Origin: [Lactobacillus] rogosae
Lineage (GTDB): Bacteria; Bacillota; Clostridia; Lachnospirales; Lachnospiraceae
Reading direction: 5' to 3'
DNA length: 64,000 nt
Assembly (NCBI GenBank): GCA_900112995.1
Contig: FONU01000007.1
Coordinates: 62,001 to 126,000, forward strand
Part shown: piece by piece, positions 42,790 to 50,053 of the stretch
How the letters are laid out: every line of letters begins with the position of its first letter
Position numbering within the stretch: the first letter of the stretch is position 1
Notes under the pieces: model-generated
The model's database searches: none
What the model was told of the DNA's origin: nothing
What the model saw: only the letters and a program-made list of their open reading frames with translations
Program-made: the position numbers and the translations under genes

Positions 42790-45396
42790 TTAATATGTCC
42801 TGTTAAGGTAATCGCTGCGGATATGCTCCTCCATAGCTTTTACCTCTTTCTCAAATTCTCTTGCTGAATACAAAAGACAGCCTGCTCCACGGATAATAAC
42901 CTGCTCAAGTCCATCTGATGTAGCAACTGTTATATTATATTTCTTTCCATTCTCATGTGCAAACTTTTCTATATAATGGTCTGCCGTTTCTGCCTCTTTC
43001 GTGTATACAACGTGAATATTATGATAGTCCATATATTCTTCATGATGTCCTGATACCCTGTAAGCATCAAATACAACGATAAGCTCACACTTCTTCATAC
43101 CCTGATAATTGCACATTATATCAAGAAGCTTATCCCTTGCACTGTCCATATTAATTCTTGACAATTCCTCAAGCTCGCTCCACGCGTGTATTATATTATA
43201 GCCGTCTACAAGAAGATACGATATTGAATTTGTCTGCTTCTTAGACTGCGAAGCTTTATACTGTCCATTATTATAGCTTCCACTGCCAGAGGCTGTTACA
43301 TATCTTCCCATTTCATCAGAGGCTTTTCTTTTAGACATATTACGTCTTTCATTATCACCCCTGCTGTTAGCAAAGTACGTCTGTGCCAGTATTCTGTCAA
43401 CTTCATCTGTTCCAATCCATTCATCAGATACCGTTCTTGCTGCTTCTTTTGGTGTGAGAACTACATTTTCATTAGTTCCCACTGGATTAAGCACGCTGTC
43501 AACGTGTGCATAATCTTTGACTTCATACCAAGGCACATTAAAACCTGAACCGTGCGCACAGAATACTGAATCTGCTGGATTTCTTGTATCTCTCTCGGCT
43601 TCATATCCGATTTGTTCAATAACCTCATCTGTATTATGACAAGGTCTGTAGCCAGACATTTTAAGTCTTAATACTCCCTTTCCCCTAGTGTACGCATTAA
43701 CCTCTGCCTGATAGTTACCAACAGTGGCAACAGGACCAGCACCCTTTATTACTGCTTCATCACCATTATCGTTAATCTCAAACTGTGCACCCATTCTCTC
43801 AAAGTCAGTCATAGCCCTGCCTATATACTGTCTGTCAAGTATTAGAGTGAATTCATAAAATGGCTCAAGCAGTACACTCTCTGCCTGCATAAGTCCATTT
43901 CTTACTGCCCTGTATGTAGCCTGCCTGAAATCTCCGCCCTCTGTATGCTTGTTATGTGCTCTGCCTGCAACAACCGTTATCTTAACATCAGTAAGTGCTG
44001 AACCTGTAAGCACACCCTTATGTGTCTTTTCACACAGATGTGTATATATAAGCCTCTGCCAGTTCTTGGCAAGCATATCCTCACTGCAATCAAGCTCATA
44101 CTGCATACCGCTCCCAGCTTCACCCGGCTCTAATATAAGATGCACCTCCGCATAATGTCTTAAAGGTTCAAAATGTCCGATTCCTTCAACTTTATCAGCT
44201 ATGGTTTCCTTGTATACAATGCTTCCTTCAGAAAATGTCACATCACAATCGAAACGTTCCTTAATAATATTCTGAAGGACTTCTATCATAACAGGTCCCA
44301 TAACCTGCACATGTATTTCTTTAAAGCTCTCATTCCATTCAATGTGAAGCTGTGGTTCTTCCTCCTCAATCATCTTAAGTTTAGGAAGCATCATAAGCGG
44401 GTCTGTTCCTGCTGGAAGATTAATCTTATAATTAAGCACAGGGGATAACACCGGTGCATTATCATTATTCTCCCTGCCTAATGCCTGTCCTGCATAGGTG
44501 CCCTCCGGCCCTGTTATTGCACATATACTTCCACATACAGCTTCATTTACCGAAGTGTACTTCTCACCTGAATATATTCTGATCTGGTTAATCTTCTCAC
44601 CATTAATAAGCTGTTTAGCTTTAAGGCTTCCGCCTGTAACCTTAATGTGTGTAAGCCTTTCACCCCTGTCATCTCTTGATATTTTATATACTCTTGCTGA
44701 CATATCCGACTGCTTATCATCACCATTTTCAGATACCTCACAATATTTATTCATAATATCAAGAAGTCTGTCCACTCCATCAAGTCTTAATGCAGAGCCG
44801 AATATTACAGGAAATACTTCTCTTTGGCTTATCATATTTCCTATAAGCTTATCATCAACAATGCCTTCATCTAACACCTGCTCTAATGCTTCTTCATTGC
44901 ACACAGCAAGCTCTTCATAATCAAGCCTGTCAAAATCCACACATCCTGATGATAACTTATTCTTTAATTGTTCTAATATTCTATGCTTGTCTGTTCCCTG
45001 CTGGTCCATTTTATTGACAAATATAAACACAGGGACTTTTAATCTCTTTAAAAGTCCCCAAAGTGTCTCTGTATGTCCCTGAACCCCATCCATTCCGTTA
45101 ATAACAAGAACAGCATAATCAAGCACCCAGAGCGTTCTCTCCATCTCTGCCGAAAAATCAACGTGTCCGGGTGTATCAAGCAATGTAACATCTAAATCTT
45201 TGTAGGTAAATACTGCCTGCTTGGAAAATATCGTTATTCCACGCTGTCTTTCATAATCATTATTATCAAGAAACGCATCTTTGTTATCTACTCTTCCAAG
45301 CTTTCTTATAGCTCCCGATGTATACAATATGCTCTCAGATAATGTTGTCTTACCTGCATCAACGTGGGCAAGCATACCTATAACAAGTTTCTTCAC
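42790..45396 (-). CDS. Tet(M)-like translational GTPase fused to a YacP/Rae1-like NYN domain
   Basis: 868 aa. EF-G-like GTPase at the N-terminus: G1 AHVDAGKTT (about 10-18), RGITIFSKQ, DTPGHVD, NKMD; then domains II-V up to about residue 640, then a Ser/Lys-rich linker (about 660-720), then a PIN-like NYN domain (about 724-868; DNA 42790-43227) with acidic residues in LLVDGYNI, VVFDAYRV, AETADHYIE and TSDGLEQ. The domain-IV loop that in Tet(M) displaces tetracycline (SPVSTPADF) reads HNKHTEGGDF here, so drug resistance cannot be assumed. The NYN part resembles Bacillus YacP/Rae1, a ribosome A-site endonuclease. Start: GTG with GGAG upstream; a TTG five codons earlier is possible. It follows aguB by 16 bp. 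Confidence 0.9.
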   Translation of the reverse strand: MKKLVIGMLAHVDAGKTTLSESILYTSGAIRKLGRVDNKDAFLDNNDYERQRGITIFSKQAVFTYKDLDVTLLDTPGHVDFSAEMERTLWVLDYAVLVINGMDGVQGHTETLWGLLKRLKVPVFIFVNKMDQQGTDKHRILEQLKNKLSSGCVDFDRLDYEELAVCNEEALEQVLDEGIVDDKLIGNMISQREVFPVIFGSALRLDGVDRLLDIMNKYCEVSENGDDKQSDMSARVYKISRDDRGERLTHIKVTGGSLKAKQLINGEKINQIRIYSGEKYTSVNEAVCGSICAITGPEGTYAGQALGRENNDNAPVLSPVLNYKINLPAGTDPLMMLPKLKMIEEEEPQLHIEWNESFKEIHVQVMGPVMIEVLQNIIKERFDCDVTFSEGSIVYKETIADKVEGIGHFEPLRHYAEVHLILEPGEAGSGMQYELDCSEDMLAKNWQRLIYTHLCEKTHKGVLTGSALTDVKITVVAGRAHNKHTEGGDFRQATYRAVRNGLMQAESVLLEPFYEFTLILDRQYIGRAMTDFERMGAQFEINDNGDEAVIKGAGPVATVGNYQAEVNAYTRGKGVLRLKMSGYRPCHNTDEVIEQIGYEAERDTRNPADSVFCAHGSGFNVPWYEVKDYAHVDSVLNPVGTNENVVLTPKEAARTVSDEWIGTDEVDRILAQTYFANSRGDNERRNMSKRKASDEMGRYVTASGSGSYNNGQYKASQSKKQTNSISYLLVDGYNIIHAWSELEELSRINMDSARDKLLDIMCNYQGMKKCELIVVFDAYRVSGHHEEYMDYHNIHVVYTKEAETADHYIEKFAHENGKKYNITVATSDGLEQVIIRGAGCLLYSAREFEKEVKAMEEHIRSDYLNRTY

Positions 45397-45412
45397 TACG
45401 TTTATCTCCAAT

Positions 45413-46279
45413 TCAGTTATATATTTCCGGTCTTCTATCTCTGAATAACCCCCACGATAATCTGTCTGTCATATATTCATCTAAATCAAACTGTGCAACA
45501 AGTACTTCTTCTGTATCTCTTCCTGCTTCACATATGACTTCACCTGTATTATCTGTTATAAATGATGAACCATAGAACTTGAGTGAACTTTTCTGTCCAC
45601 CATTTGCCTCGCAAGGGTCTACTGTTTCTATTCCAATTCTGTTAGCTGCCACCACAGGAACAAGATTACAGCCGGCGTGTCCCTGCATACACCTTCTCCA
45701 ATGAGGCATACTGTCACATTCAAGTATAGGCTCACTTCCTATAGCTGTAGGATAGAATAATATCTCTGCACCCTTTACCGCTAATGCTCTTGCCGTTTCA
45801 GGGAACCACTGATCCCAGCATATTCCTATACCTATATTGCCAAACCTTGTATTAAACACCTTAAATCCTGTATTACCCGGCGTAAAATAGAATTTCTCCT
45901 GATAATAATGGTCATCTGGAATATGTGTCTTTCTGTATATTCCAAGATTGCTTCCATCAGCATCAATAACCGTAACTGTATTATACAACACATTTATGTT
46001 TTTTTCATAAAAACTTACAATTATAACAACTCCAAGTTCCTTAGCAGTCTGTGTAAAATGCTGGACAGCATCATTTTCTTGTACGCTTTTGGCATAGGCG
46101 TAATATTCATATCTTCTCTCCTGACAGAAATACTGTCTTTCAAATAATTCTGGCAGAAGAATTATATTAGCTCCCTTTTTTACTGCTTCTCTTGTCATTT
46201 CATCAGCTTTTTTTATATTATCGCCGACATTATTACTGCACCGCATCTGAATTGCCGCAGCTTTTACTTTTCTGCTCAT
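45413..46279 (-). CDS. aguB: N-carbamoylputrescine amidase
   Basis: 288 aa nitrilase-fold enzyme that hydrolyses N-carbamoylputrescine to putrescine, CO2 and ammonia. Catalytic Glu in ILLPELFERQYFC, Lys in YRKTHIPDD, Cys in GIGICWDQWFPE. The stretch KFYFTPGNTGFKVF is typical of AguB. It lies 127 bp downstream of aguA in the polyamine operon; the GTPase-NYN gene follows directly. Confidence 0.96.
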   Translation of the reverse strand: MSRKVKAAAIQMRCSNNVGDNIKKADEMTREAVKKGANIILLPELFERQYFCQERRYEYYAYAKSVQENDAVQHFTQTAKELGVVIIVSFYEKNINVLYNTVTVIDADGSNLGIYRKTHIPDDHYYQEKFYFTPGNTGFKVFNTRFGNIGIGICWDQWFPETARALAVKGAEILFYPTAIGSEPILECDSMPHWRRCMQGHAGCNLVPVVAANRIGIETVDPCEANGGQKSSLKFYGSSFITDNTGEVICEAGRDTEEVLVAQFDLDEYMTDRLSWGLFRDRRPEIYN

Positions 46280-46406
46280 ATTACCTCATTTCCGTGTCTG
46301 TCACACTAAAACCAATCTATAACCTATTACGCTTTGACTTCTTTTTATACCTTAATTGTGCCAGCAGCACTAATCCGTAACATATATACCACTTTAATAT
46401 ATCCTG

Positions 46407-47564
46407 TTATTGCGGTATCTGCTGTGTAATACAATGTATATTGCCTCCACCAACAATTATATCTCTTGCATACACACCAATAACCTCATACTCTGGCATA
46501 AGATTCTGAATAAGATCTACTGCCTGCTTATCTTTAACATCGCCAAACTGTGGAACAAGCACAATATCATTGGCTATATAGAAGTTAGCATAACTGGCCG
46601 CAAGCCGCTCTCCCGCTTCACGCATATCTTCTCCTGCTTCAAACACAAGACCCTTTAAATCATTATCAGTTATGCACACTGGGACATCCGGTATATGCAG
46701 TTTATGAACATTAAACTTACGTCCTCTGGCATCAGTTTCTCTTTCAAGCACCTTCATATCAGCCAAAGACATTGCATATTGAGGATCTTCCTCATTATCC
46801 GTCCACGCAAGAACTACATTAGCTGGTGAGGTAAATGCACACACATTATCAACGTGTTCATTAGTTTCATCATTATATATTCCATATGGAATCCATATAA
46901 TTTTCTTTGCCCCTAGATATTTCTTAAGATTATGCTCAATCTGTTCCCTGCTCATATCTGGATTTCTTCCCTTGCTTAAAAGACAGCTGTCAGTTACTAT
47001 AACCGTACCTTCACCATCACTGTGTATAGAACCTCCCTCAAGCACAAACGGATTGGCATCATAGCAATCATATCCTGTCATATTACAGAATTGCAGAGCT
47101 GCTTTATCGTCCTTTTCCCAATTCTTGTAAAGTCCGTCATAATCGCCACCCCACGCATTGAATTTCCAGTTAATCCCACGTACATCACCTGTATGTCCGT
47201 TTTTTACAAACGTGGGACATACATCTCTTGCCCACGCATCATCTGTTTCGATGCAGACTACTTCAATATTCCAGGCAGCTTTAATATCTTCACTGGCTTT
47301 ATTACATTCTCCTGTTACAGCGTCTTTTATTTTCATAAATCTTGCTTCTGCCTGTGCATAGTGCTTCTCATCTGCTAATATATACACTTTTTCGTGTCTG
47401 GATATTATATGTGCAATATCCACAAATACATTCTGTGCAGCTACAGCATTATAAGGCCACGAGCCTGTCCTTACAGGCCATATCATAATTGTAGCCTTGT
47501 GCCTGTCATATTCTGCCGGCATATAATAGCCATCTTCTATAGGTGTAGTATCTGTTATTCTCAC
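46407..47564 (-). CDS. aguA: Agmatine deiminase
   Basis: 385 aa guanidino-modifying enzyme converting agmatine to N-carbamoylputrescine. The N-terminal MPAEYDRHKATIMIWP, active-site VLEGGSIHSDGEG and catalytic Cys in GGGNIHCITQQIP near the C-terminus are characteristic. The GTG start is chosen because GGAGG lies six bases upstream and it overlaps the nspC stop (GTGA); an earlier GTG four codons upstream has no spaced RBS. It acts between speA and aguB. Confidence 0.96.
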   Translation of the reverse strand: MRITDTTPIEDGYYMPAEYDRHKATIMIWPVRTGSWPYNAVAAQNVFVDIAHIISRHEKVYILADEKHYAQAEARFMKIKDAVTGECNKASEDIKAAWNIEVVCIETDDAWARDVCPTFVKNGHTGDVRGINWKFNAWGGDYDGLYKNWEKDDKAALQFCNMTGYDCYDANPFVLEGGSIHSDGEGTVIVTDSCLLSKGRNPDMSREQIEHNLKKYLGAKKIIWIPYGIYNDETNEHVDNVCAFTSPANVVLAWTDNEEDPQYAMSLADMKVLERETDARGRKFNVHKLHIPDVPVCITDNDLKGLVFEAGEDMREAGERLAASYANFYIANDIVLVPQFGDVKDKQAVDLIQNLMPEYEVIGVYARDIIVGGGNIHCITQQIPQ

Positions 47565-48778
47565 GAAAGCCTCCACTTAAAATCTTCATAACCAAATTCT
47601 TTAATAACCCGCACTTCTTTATCTTTCATTACCGCTATAGCTGGAAGTGGTATTCCATTAAATGTATTATTCTTTACCATTGAGTATATCGCCATATCCT
47701 CAAATACAAGCCTGTCCCCTATATTAATCTTACTGTCAAACTTATAATCACCTATAATATCTCCTGCAAGACAGGTATATGAAGACAGCCTGTATACATT
47801 TTCTCTGTATTCTTTTTTATCTTTATACTTCATAATATCTTCATTTTCCTGAATATCTTTACCAGCAGTAACATCTTTATATTCTTTGATATTTTTAATT
47901 ATCTGTGCCCCCCGAAGTGGTGGTGTATATGGCATTTCGAGGACATCTGGCATATGGCACGCGGCAGAAGCATCAAGTATAAGCGTTTCGATTCCATTAT
48001 CAACCTTATCTAACACCTCTGTAACAAGATAACCGGCATTAAGAGCAACAGCCTCGCCCGGCTCTAAATACACCTGTACATTATATTCACTCTTTATGTG
48101 ATTAACGCAGCCAATAAGTGTATCTATATCATAATCTTTTCTTGTTATATGATGTCCACCGCCCATATTAATCCACTTCATATTCTTCATAATATGCCCG
48201 AATTTATCTTCAACTGCTTTAAGTGTAATTGCAAGTGCATCTGAATTCTGCTCACAGAGAGTATGAAAATGAAGTCCCTCAACTCCATTAAGAACTTCCT
48301 CATCTGCCTTGTTTAACATATCAATAGTTACTCCAAGCCTTGAACCATACGCACAAGGGTCATATATTGCATTATCACCCTGCGTAGATATTTCCGGATT
48401 AATTCTAAGTCCTATGCTGATACCGCTTCTTATACATTTTTCCTTATAACGCATAAGCTGCCCTATGGAATTAAATATTATATGGTCACATATTTTTACA
48501 AGTTCATCTATATCCTTTTCTTTGTAAGCAGGAGCATAGACGTGATTTTCTTTATTCATCTCTTCCCTGCCAAGCCTTGCCTCATACAATCCACTTGCTG
48601 TTGTGCCACTTATGTATCTGCCAATTAACGGATATTCATAAAATGCTGAAAATGCTTTCTGTGCAAGCAATATTTTACATCCTGTTTTGTCTTCAACATA
48701 TTTTAAAATTTCAAGATTATGAACCAGAATATTCTCATCTATAATATATGCTGGTGTTGTAATATCATCTATTGTCAT
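47561..48778 (-). CDS. nspC: Carboxynorspermidine/carboxyspermidine decarboxylase
   Basis: 405 aa alanine-racemase-fold, PLP-dependent decarboxylase. The PLP-lysine block is LLAQKAFSAF (N-terminal), followed by GLRINPEIST, LHFHTLCEQ and the C-terminal TCLAGDIIGDYKF (catalytic Cys and Asp). It decarboxylates carboxyspermidine (or carboxynorspermidine) made by the neighbouring dehydrogenase, giving spermidine. A charged insertion of about 25 residues (near 310-335, rich in E, D and K) is not usual and may be a surface loop. Overlaps aguA by four bases. Confidence 0.94.
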   Translation of the reverse strand: MTIDDITTPAYIIDENILVHNLEILKYVEDKTGCKILLAQKAFSAFYEYPLIGRYISGTTASGLYEARLGREEMNKENHVYAPAYKEKDIDELVKICDHIIFNSIGQLMRYKEKCIRSGISIGLRINPEISTQGDNAIYDPCAYGSRLGVTIDMLNKADEEVLNGVEGLHFHTLCEQNSDALAITLKAVEDKFGHIMKNMKWINMGGGHHITRKDYDIDTLIGCVNHIKSEYNVQVYLEPGEAVALNAGYLVTEVLDKVDNGIETLILDASAACHMPDVLEMPYTPPLRGAQIIKNIKEYKDVTAGKDIQENEDIMKYKDKKEYRENVYRLSSYTCLAGDIIGDYKFDSKINIGDRLVFEDMAIYSMVKNNTFNGIPLPAIAVMKDKEVRVIKEFGYEDFKWRLS

Positions 48779-48793
48779 CAACTCTTATATCCT

Positions 48794-50053
48794 CTATTCT
48801 ACAAGCTGTGGATTTTCCTCAACTACCCAAGGAAGTCCCCATTTATTAAGTGCTTCCATATATGGATCAGGATCAAATTCTTCCACATTGTATACACCTG
48901 CTTTATTCCACATTCCTGTGACAACCATCATTGTTCCTATCATTGCAGGAACTCCTGTTGTATATGATATTGCCTGTGATTCAACTTCCCTGTAACATTC
49001 CTGATGGTCACATACATTATAAATATATATTGTCTTTTCTTTTCCATCTTTTCTTCCCCTGAATATACAGCCAATGTTAGTCTTTCCTACTGTTCTTTCT
49101 CCAAGTGTAGCAGGATCTGGAAGAAGTTCTTTTAAGAGCTGTATAGGAACAACTTCAACACCATTGACTTTTACAGGGTCAGTTCTTAACATTCCAACAT
49201 TCTCAAGACATTTCATATGTGTAAGGTAGCTCTGTCCAAATGTCATAAAAAATCTTATTCTTTTAACTCCCGGAATGTTTTTAGCAAGCGATTCTATCTC
49301 CTCGTGATGTAAAAGATACATATCCTTCATTCCAACCTGTGGGAAATCATATTCTCTCTTTATAGACATAGCTGGTACTTCTACCCAGTGTCCATCTTCC
49401 CAATATGAGCCAGGTGCTGATACTTCTCTTAAATTAATCTCAGGATTAAAATTAGTCGCAAACGGATAGCCGTGATCTCCGCCGTTGCAGTCAAGAATAT
49501 CAATTGTGTCTATTTCATCAAAGTAGTGCTTAAGTGCATATGCTGAAAATACACTTGTTACACCAGGATCAAAGCCCGTTCCTAAAAGTCCCATTATTCC
49601 AGCTTCTTCAAATTGCTTCTTATAATTCCACTGCCAAGAATAATCAAAATAAGCTGAAAAACCTTCTTCCTTACATCTTTTTTCATATATAGCTCTCCAC
49701 TCAGGATCTTCGGTATCTTCTGCTTCATAGTTAGCAGTATCAATATAATGCACCTTTGTCTTAAGGCAGGCATCCATTATTGTTAAATCCTGATATGGAA
49801 GTGCAAGGTTAAGCACTGCCTCTGGTTTATAGCTTTCAATAAGCTTCACAAGTTCTTCTACATTATCTGCATCAACCTTTGCTGTTGTAATTACTGTCTT
49901 TGTATCAGGCTGTAATTTATCCTTTAAAGCATCACATTTGCTCTTAGTCCTGCTTGCTATACATATCTCTGTAAATACTTCACTGTTCTGACAGCACTTG
50001 TTAATTGCCACTGTTGCAACTCCACCACAACCTATTATTAATACTCTGCTCAT
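48794..50053 (-). CDS. Carboxynorspermidine/carboxyspermidine dehydrogenase (saccharopine-dehydrogenase family)
   Basis: 419 aa. Rossmann motif VLIIGCGGVATVAINKC at the N-terminus; IDTANYEAEDTEDPEW and GTGFDPGVTSVFSAYALKH are typical of the CASDH branch of the LYS9-like family. It condenses putrescine (or diaminopropane) with aspartate semialdehyde using NADPH. It lies directly upstream of nspC (15 bp gap), whose product uses this one. Together they bypass decarboxylated SAM. Confidence 0.95.
   Translation of the reverse strand: MSRVLIIGCGGVATVAINKCCQNSEVFTEICIASRTKSKCDALKDKLQPDTKTVITTAKVDADNVEELVKLIESYKPEAVLNLALPYQDLTIMDACLKTKVHYIDTANYEAEDTEDPEWRAIYEKRCKEEGFSAYFDYSWQWNYKKQFEEAGIMGLLGTGFDPGVTSVFSAYALKHYFDEIDTIDILDCNGGDHGYPFATNFNPEINLREVSAPGSYWEDGHWVEVPAMSIKREYDFPQVGMKDMYLLHHEEIESLAKNIPGVKRIRFFMTFGQSYLTHMKCLENVGMLRTDPVKVNGVEVVPIQLLKELLPDPATLGERTVGKTNIGCIFRGRKDGKEKTIYIYNVCDHQECYREVESQAISYTTGVPAMIGTMMVVTGMWNKAGVYNVEEFDPDPYMEALNKWGLPWVVEENPQLVE

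Follow-up and report, generated by a model that had tools for sequence, protein, structure and literature searches.

A Tet(M)-like translational GTPase fused to a Rae1-type nuclease in gut Clostridia appears to have repeatedly displaced free-standing rae1

Is a protein that joins a Tet(M)-like ribosomal GTPase to a nuclease of the YacP/Rae1 type a tetracycline resistance determinant, a ribosome-directed mRNA endonuclease, or an accident of one assembly? The question is raised by a gene of [Lactobacillus] rogosae (Lachnospiraceae) in what is here called the window, i.e., the whole stretch of 64,000 nucleotides that was analyzed. The fusion gene (42790..45396; this and all following coordinates refer to the minus strand) is one unbroken frame of 868 amino acids (aa) that begins with GTG at 45396, 16 nt from the stop of the upstream gene. 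A TTG at 45411 could also serve as the start, although GGAG, a likely ribosome-binding site read from the sequence (45406..45409), lies 9 nt ahead of the GTG.

The encoded protein belongs to the EF-2/EF-G superfamily, with Pfam matches for the GTPase (G) domain GTP_EFTU (residues 5 to 219; 44740..45384; G1 to G5 intact), domain II (EF-G_D2, residues 232 to 305; 44482..44703), domain III (EFG_III, residues 319 to 389; 44230..44442; 25.1 bits, just below the cutoff of 27), domain IV (EFG_IV, residues 392 to 505; 43882..44223), and domain V (EFG_C, residues 508 to 588; 43633..43875). The alignment adds a conserved C-terminal extension of the GTPase (residues 586 to 631; 43504..43641), in which C586, C613, and H631 are near-invariant. 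A linker follows (residues 638 to 723; 43228..43485) that is predicted to be disordered (AF2 pLDDT of <50) and varies in length across fused proteins, with 71 to 156 aa (median, 87) between H631 and D731, and the chain ends in an NYN_YacP (Rae1) nuclease domain (residues 728 to 865; 42802..43215; Pfam E 1.2e-51). Mean identity to the window's protein among 126 other fused proteins is highest in domain IV (74%), followed by the NYN domain (64%), the G domain (59%), and the linker region (25%, residues 633 to 724).

Both active sites are intact. The G-motif residues K16, D74, N128, K129, and D131 are each present in all 127 aligned fused proteins. The NYN domain scores 175.4 bits against PF05991 (curated cutoff, 24.6), and its catalytic-type acids D731 (DGYN; 43204..43206), D777 (VFDA; 43066..43068), D806 (ETAD; 42979..42981), and D828 (ATSD; 42913..42915), placed by alignment, occur in 131/131 fused and 44/44 free-standing sequences. 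An earlier note, made from the DNA alone, had described a single frame joining an EF-G-type GTPase with intact G motifs to an NYN domain with the expected acidic residues; each of these points is borne out, and a search for orthologues lacking the acids, which the note had named as grounds for doubt, found them to be invariant.

The nuclease half resembles Rae1 of Bacillus subtilis (PDB 5mq8 and 5mq9) in its fold family and in its four acids; the match to 5mq9 (E 2.9e-26) aligns 134 aa and keeps all four acidic positions. It differs in being covalently joined to a translational GTPase and in its C-terminal tail, since the window's match ends at profile position 140 of 166 and lacks the complete Rae1 tail. 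In a sample of 147 genomes of the class, the Pfam match reaches at least profile position 159 in 46/46 free-standing but only 19/53 fused copies (one copy at a contig end, G130, was omitted from the fused count). Similarly, the arginine aligned with R166 of B. subtilis is found in 38/44 free-standing and 18/131 fused sequences, the remaining fused sequences having a gap (62) or other residues at this position. R166P is grouped among loss-of-function rae1 suppressor mutations in PMC6613710. The tail is thus kept in free Rae1 and seemingly dispensable in the fusion, which suggests that targeting is now done by the GTPase, and relaxation of the R166-type arginine fits such a transfer of the targeting role.

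Many gut Clostridia carry this GTPase-Rae1 fusion. When the window's genome was searched together with 60 relatives (61 in all), a YacP domain was found in 51 and was absent from 10; it lay in a frame of at least 300 aa in 35 and was free-standing in 16. The 35 include four genomes with broken or contig-cut frames (G006, G007, G017, and G018), one of which (G007) has no GTPase match. The window's genome has a single YacP domain, the fused one, and 34/60 relatives have the NYN domain in a frame of at least 300 aa, mostly at full length. The class sample (the class being taken as Clostridia on the basis of named relatives) of 147 genomes, scored as fused or free-standing by frame length and including one broken frame (G104), contained 54 fused and 46 free-standing YacP domains; 47 genomes had none, and none had both kinds over the cutoff. 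Fused and free-standing copies over the cutoff were likewise never found together within two families, one with 7 fused and 4 free-standing copies (f47, 0/11) and one with 11 fused, 5 free-standing, and 6 lacking YacP by frame length (f42, 0/22). An assembly artifact or local accident, with separate genes in all close relatives, is ruled out by the occurrence of the fusion in 35/61 and 54/147 genomes. Further copies come from the best 80 of 591 confirmed candidate loci, which are fused by construction, the query spanning both halves. Both halves lie in one frame in 75 of these 80 (three, L085, L092, and L106, stop at a contig end); three others are cut by a contig end and start within the GTPase, and two are frame-broken. 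Three fused genomes of family f47 (G179, G209, and G210) have a second, sub-cutoff NYN-like frame of ∼165 aa (21 bits). Two near-complete genomes (G013 and G025; 99% and 100%), one of them from the window's genus, have neither the GTPase (at E 1e-60) nor a YacP domain.

The GTPase also occurs without the nuclease. A GTPase search of the same 147 genomes gave matches in 64, namely, the same 54 fused copies, 8 unfused orthologues in frames of 655 to 729 aa (G085, G088, G113, G119, G127, G165, G187, and G204), and more distant relatives in two further genomes (G102 and G189). Free-standing YacP accompanies the unfused orthologue in four of these eight genomes (G119, G165, G187, and G204) and is absent from the other four. 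Among the 61 genomes, an unfused orthologue was found in five: together with free-standing YacP in G042, G046, G049, and G059 and without it in G047 (77% complete). The copy of G059 is split over two frames, and that of G046 was flagged as containing stops, although its 669-aa frame is open. Unfused copies in genomes without YacP (G047, G085, G088, G113, and G127) mean that the GTPase has work that does not need the nuclease. All GTPase matches of at least 50% identity in the 147-genome search are fused (G104 being frame-broken), and no fission was therefore seen.

Where did the free-standing gene go? Free-standing rae1 (yacP) sits between frames read as rlmB and sigH. Of 52 genomes searched for sigH, 50 yielded a locus for examination (34 fused, 10 free-standing, and 6 without YacP); G028 gave no sigH match and G202 gave no locus. 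In genomes with the free-standing gene, yacP lies directly before sigH in 10/10, with rlmB in the stretch in 9/10. An intact rae1 beside sigH was absent from all 34 fused genomes examined. rlmB lies within the fetched stretch of 1.5 kb in 27 of these; it is missing from that of the other seven, where the ancestral gene order can only be presumed. In seven examined genomes of the window's family, the gap between rlmB and sigH (aligned ends) is 3 to 41 bp, and it is 3 bp in the window's genome, where the fusion, unlike free-standing rae1, lies outside the rlmB-sigH cluster.

Decayed rae1 remnants were detected at the sigH slot in 8/34 fused genomes, with E values from 6.5e-17 to 2e-3: G082 (E 6.5e-17, with pieces in two frames), G220 (E 9e-11, with two stops), G056 (E 7e-10), G175 (E 2e-6), G037 (E 5e-6, adjoining sigH with no rlmB in the stretch), G195 (E 6e-5), G156 (E 1.5e-4), and the weak G134 (E 2e-3). 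A shuffled control of 20 rounds over the 34 loci gave 1 match in 680 (E 0.005). No remnant was found at the other 26 fused slots or in any of the six examined genomes without YacP. The mutual exclusion of fused and free-standing copies is strong when kinship is ignored (Fisher's exact test, p 5e-12 in the class sample and p 1.3e-4 in families f47 and f42). Phylogenetically independent pairs on the sigH tree all run in the expected direction, with the trait differing in 3 to 5 of 6 pairs, but with so few pairs the sign test is not significant (p 0.06 to 0.25). Loss of rae1 is also common without the fusion (47/147 genomes lack YacP). Taken together, the fusion appears to have displaced free-standing rae1 repeatedly, and we infer that this displacement means functional replacement. 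The fusion seems to have the same genomic role as free-standing Rae1. The displacement supports a Rae1-type role for the fusion.

Phylogenies of both halves were built by quick search without bootstrap. In the GTPase tree (69 sequences with SH-aLRT support; the split G059 copy was omitted), all 50 fused sequences form one clade (SH-aLRT, 100) that is separate from the 13 unfused sequences, the two more distant ones, and three Tet genes. In the NYN tree (174 sequences, after removal of identical rows from 181; 44 are free-standing, including 9 of the 16 in the relatives' set), 129/130 fused domains lie together, alongside free-standing YacPs from the order to which the window's genome belongs, and the fused/free label needs two changes. 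The free-standing domains of G028 and G036, from the window's family, lie unresolved among the fused ones. A second fusion origin, suggested by one oddly placed NYN domain (L233, from G061), was rejected on finding its GTPase half inside the fused clade, and the placement is more likely a long-branch error. Copies from Desulfosporosinus, Clostridium punense, Fusibacter, and Anaerovorax cluster inside the fused clade on short branches, joined by those of families f2, f21, f30, f42, f43, f47, and f70; the GTPase node has 16 sequences (SH-aLRT, 99), and a similar NYN node has 29 (98). This pattern points to horizontal transfer of the fusion from Lachnospiraceae-like bacteria, and displacement of rae1 probably followed such transfer.

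What distinguishes the GTPase half is the tip of domain IV. Its tip loop (residues 405 to 416, G-GHFEPLRHYA; 44149..44184) and loop III (residues 478 to 491, GRAH-KHTEGGDFR; 43924..43965), both defined by alignment, are near-invariant: across 127 fused and 13 unfused proteins, few exceptions occur at any one site, and H408 and H414 are present in 127/127 fused proteins. Loop III, which is private to the subfamily, reads AH-KHTEGGDF in fused and unfused members and YYSPVS in the three Tet proteins. The resemblance to EF-G extends to the five domains, the G motifs, and the histidine of loop III, and the structural match to EF-G is high (best Z of 35.4 and rmsd of 23.4 over 576 aligned positions; VIA-align, the rows listed covering the EF-G part). 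However, the genome has its own separate EF-G (1,112.6 bits), with which loop III of the fusion has the histidine and a few other positions in common; the other tip residues are mostly unlike, and the fusion adds the extension and the nuclease. C586, C613, and H631 of the extension are kept in fused and most unfused proteins and fall in gaps in the three Tet proteins. We assign the GTPase half to a separate subfamily of the EF-G/Tet superfamily, one that also occurs unfused. The four near-invariant histidines of the two tip loops in fused and unfused proteins (H408, H414, H481, and H484) are a possible RNA contact or metal site, and the two cysteines and the histidine of the extension could form another metal site.

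Resistance labels on this subfamily are difficult to reconcile with its scores. The window's protein reaches 409.4 bits against NF012153 (cutoff, 775) and 294 bits against the TetM/W/O/S model (cutoff, 1,100), whereas three true tet genes, used as a positive control, pass both (819 to 854 and 1,275 to 1,311 bits). Two unfused orthologues, the plasmid-borne fusion of Agathobacter rectalis, and a Ligilactobacillus salivarius megaplasmid protein also fall below 775, the range including the window's protein being 379 to 468 bits. Two plasmid records carry the whole fusion: the A. rectalis copy (389 bits) is annotated as TetM/TetW/TetO/TetS family, and the Monoglobus copy is annotated as a translation factor GTPase family protein. 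The earlier note had suspected that such fusions sit in databases under Tet(M)-type labels, as the A. rectalis copy does, and had argued that the loop that dislodges tetracycline is not conserved and that a resistance annotation would probably be wrong; the private motif in place of that loop and the scores below the tetracycline protection cutoffs agree with it. Since the fusion also seems to have taken over from the separate rae1 gene, the tetracycline resistance label on some fusion copies is probably wrong. If so, some common gut bacteria would lose an erroneous resistance label, a correction that matters for resistome surveys. The L. salivarius protein (L311, NC_017499.1) is an unfused orthologue with ∼47% identity over residues 1 to 637 that adjoins an rpsN gene; it is labeled TetM family at 379 bits. 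Usable susceptibility data for this unfused GTPase were not found in the literature searched.

The fusion architecture itself has been in print since 2015. Atkinson 2015 (PMC4342817) reports proteins from ten species of Clostridiales that carry a YacP-like NYN domain, places these proteins in the Tet subfamily, and suggests an RNase-based resistance mechanism. As described there, the architecture is the same as that found here, a Tet-like GTPase with a C-terminal YacP-like NYN domain; the reading differs, in that the private tip and the displaced rae1 here favor a Rae1 role rather than resistance. The present analysis adds the evidence for displacement, a single GTPase clade with unfused relatives, a domain IV tip motif private to the subfamily, relaxation of the Rae1 tail, and hence a different functional reading. 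That paper was the sole mention of the fusion, and no functional study of it was found, in a literature search that did not take in Leroy 2017, Condon 2018, and three Tet(M)/Tet(O) structure papers.

We consider it fairly probable that the fusion is a Rae1 A-site mRNA endonuclease that carries its own translational GTPase and serves in housekeeping rather than in drug resistance. Domain IV of EF-G-type factors enters the A site. The fusion would bind there with mRNA as its substrate: its histidine-rich domain IV tip would probe the decoding center on ribosomes with an A site that lacks normal service, and the NYN half, on its linker of ∼87 residues, would cut A-site mRNA, as proposed for Rae1 in B. 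subtilis. The competition of domain IV and Rae1 for the A site counts against this reading, since the two cannot fill one A site together and a hand-off is needed. We hypothesize that the GTP-bound factor docks first, that hydrolysis then withdraws domain IV, and that this lets the tethered nuclease move into the vacated site or act on a neighboring (the next) ribosome; a linker of 71 to 156 residues would permit either. The earlier note's suggestion of a GTP-driven factor that loads the nuclease onto stalled or drug-bound ribosomes is likewise hypothetical. A bolder proposal, which we advance only tentatively, is a GTP-gated cleavage machine in which the H408/H414/H481/H484 tip recognizes a particular state of the A site and hydrolysis hands the site to the protein's own Rae1 domain. 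On this view, the partner factor that free-standing Rae1 has been missing would be an unfused member of the subfamily, in some other Clostridia and possibly in Bacilli (e.g., Ligilactobacillus) as well.

The two halves might instead have independent functions on one chain, a specialized elongation or recycling GTPase and a self-acting, tethered Rae1, with fusion raising local concentration and GTP playing no gating role. A long, variable linker of predicted disorder, two intact active sites, and the GTPases of the five genomes without any YacP are what this arrangement would produce. We nevertheless regard it as rather unlikely, given the absence of fission among GTPase matches of at least 50% identity and the relaxed Rae1 tail of fused copies, which suggest coupling but do not prove it.

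Protection against tetracycline or another A-site drug, with the RNase as a new resistance mechanism as suggested in PMC4342817, seems very improbable. The nearest solved relatives by sequence are indeed TetO (E 1.8e-74) and TetM, with the same EF-G-like five-domain layout, and some database copies carry the TetM family label. The fusion nevertheless misses both family cutoffs that true tet genes pass, has a private motif in place of the Tet tip loop, adds an extension and a nuclease, and stands with its unfused relatives apart from the three tet genes in the tree. In addition, G017 and G035 carry Tet genes as well as the fusion, as does G026 judging by similarity, and a resistance gene would not be expected to displace a housekeeping RNase. 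Also very improbable, in our judgment, is maturation of rRNA or tRNA by the NYN domain, with the GTPase bringing it to preribosomes. This role was the first proposed for YacP (cited for the domain family in PMC4342817), and free-standing yacP adjoins a gene read as rlmB, an rRNA methylase. B. subtilis Rae1, however, is described in PMC10100781 and PMC6613710 as a translation-dependent mRNA endonuclease, and the conservation of domain IV suggests action at the A site of mature ribosomes.

If the A-site endonuclease reading is right, the fusion shows one means of recruiting Rae1 to ribosomes and draws attention to a translational GTPase subfamily for which no functional study was found. The chimera makes Rae1 action testable, as its two active sites are separable within one protein and as genomes with the fusion, with the unfused GTPase, and without the nuclease form a natural set for comparison.

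A conserved gene neighborhood was sought and rejected. A polyamine-type gene run (45413..50053, by Pfam) precedes the fusion in the window and consists of a carbon-nitrogen hydrolase, a PAD_porph (agmatine deiminase-type) enzyme, a pyridoxal phosphate (PLP) decarboxylase, and a saccharopine dehydrogenase-like enzyme; these neighbors recur in up to seven compared loci, apparently all from the window's genus. The commonest neighbor elsewhere, a transporter-like frame, occurs at 18 compared loci on either side and either strand. Carriage by phage was also rejected, on the evidence of the best of 12 matches in a phage collection. This match, a “Bacteriophage sp.” record (L309, MT835514.1), has an 890-aa fusion frame together with frames resembling fur, gltX, and glpK; it reads as bacterial chromosome and is probably mislabeled as phage.
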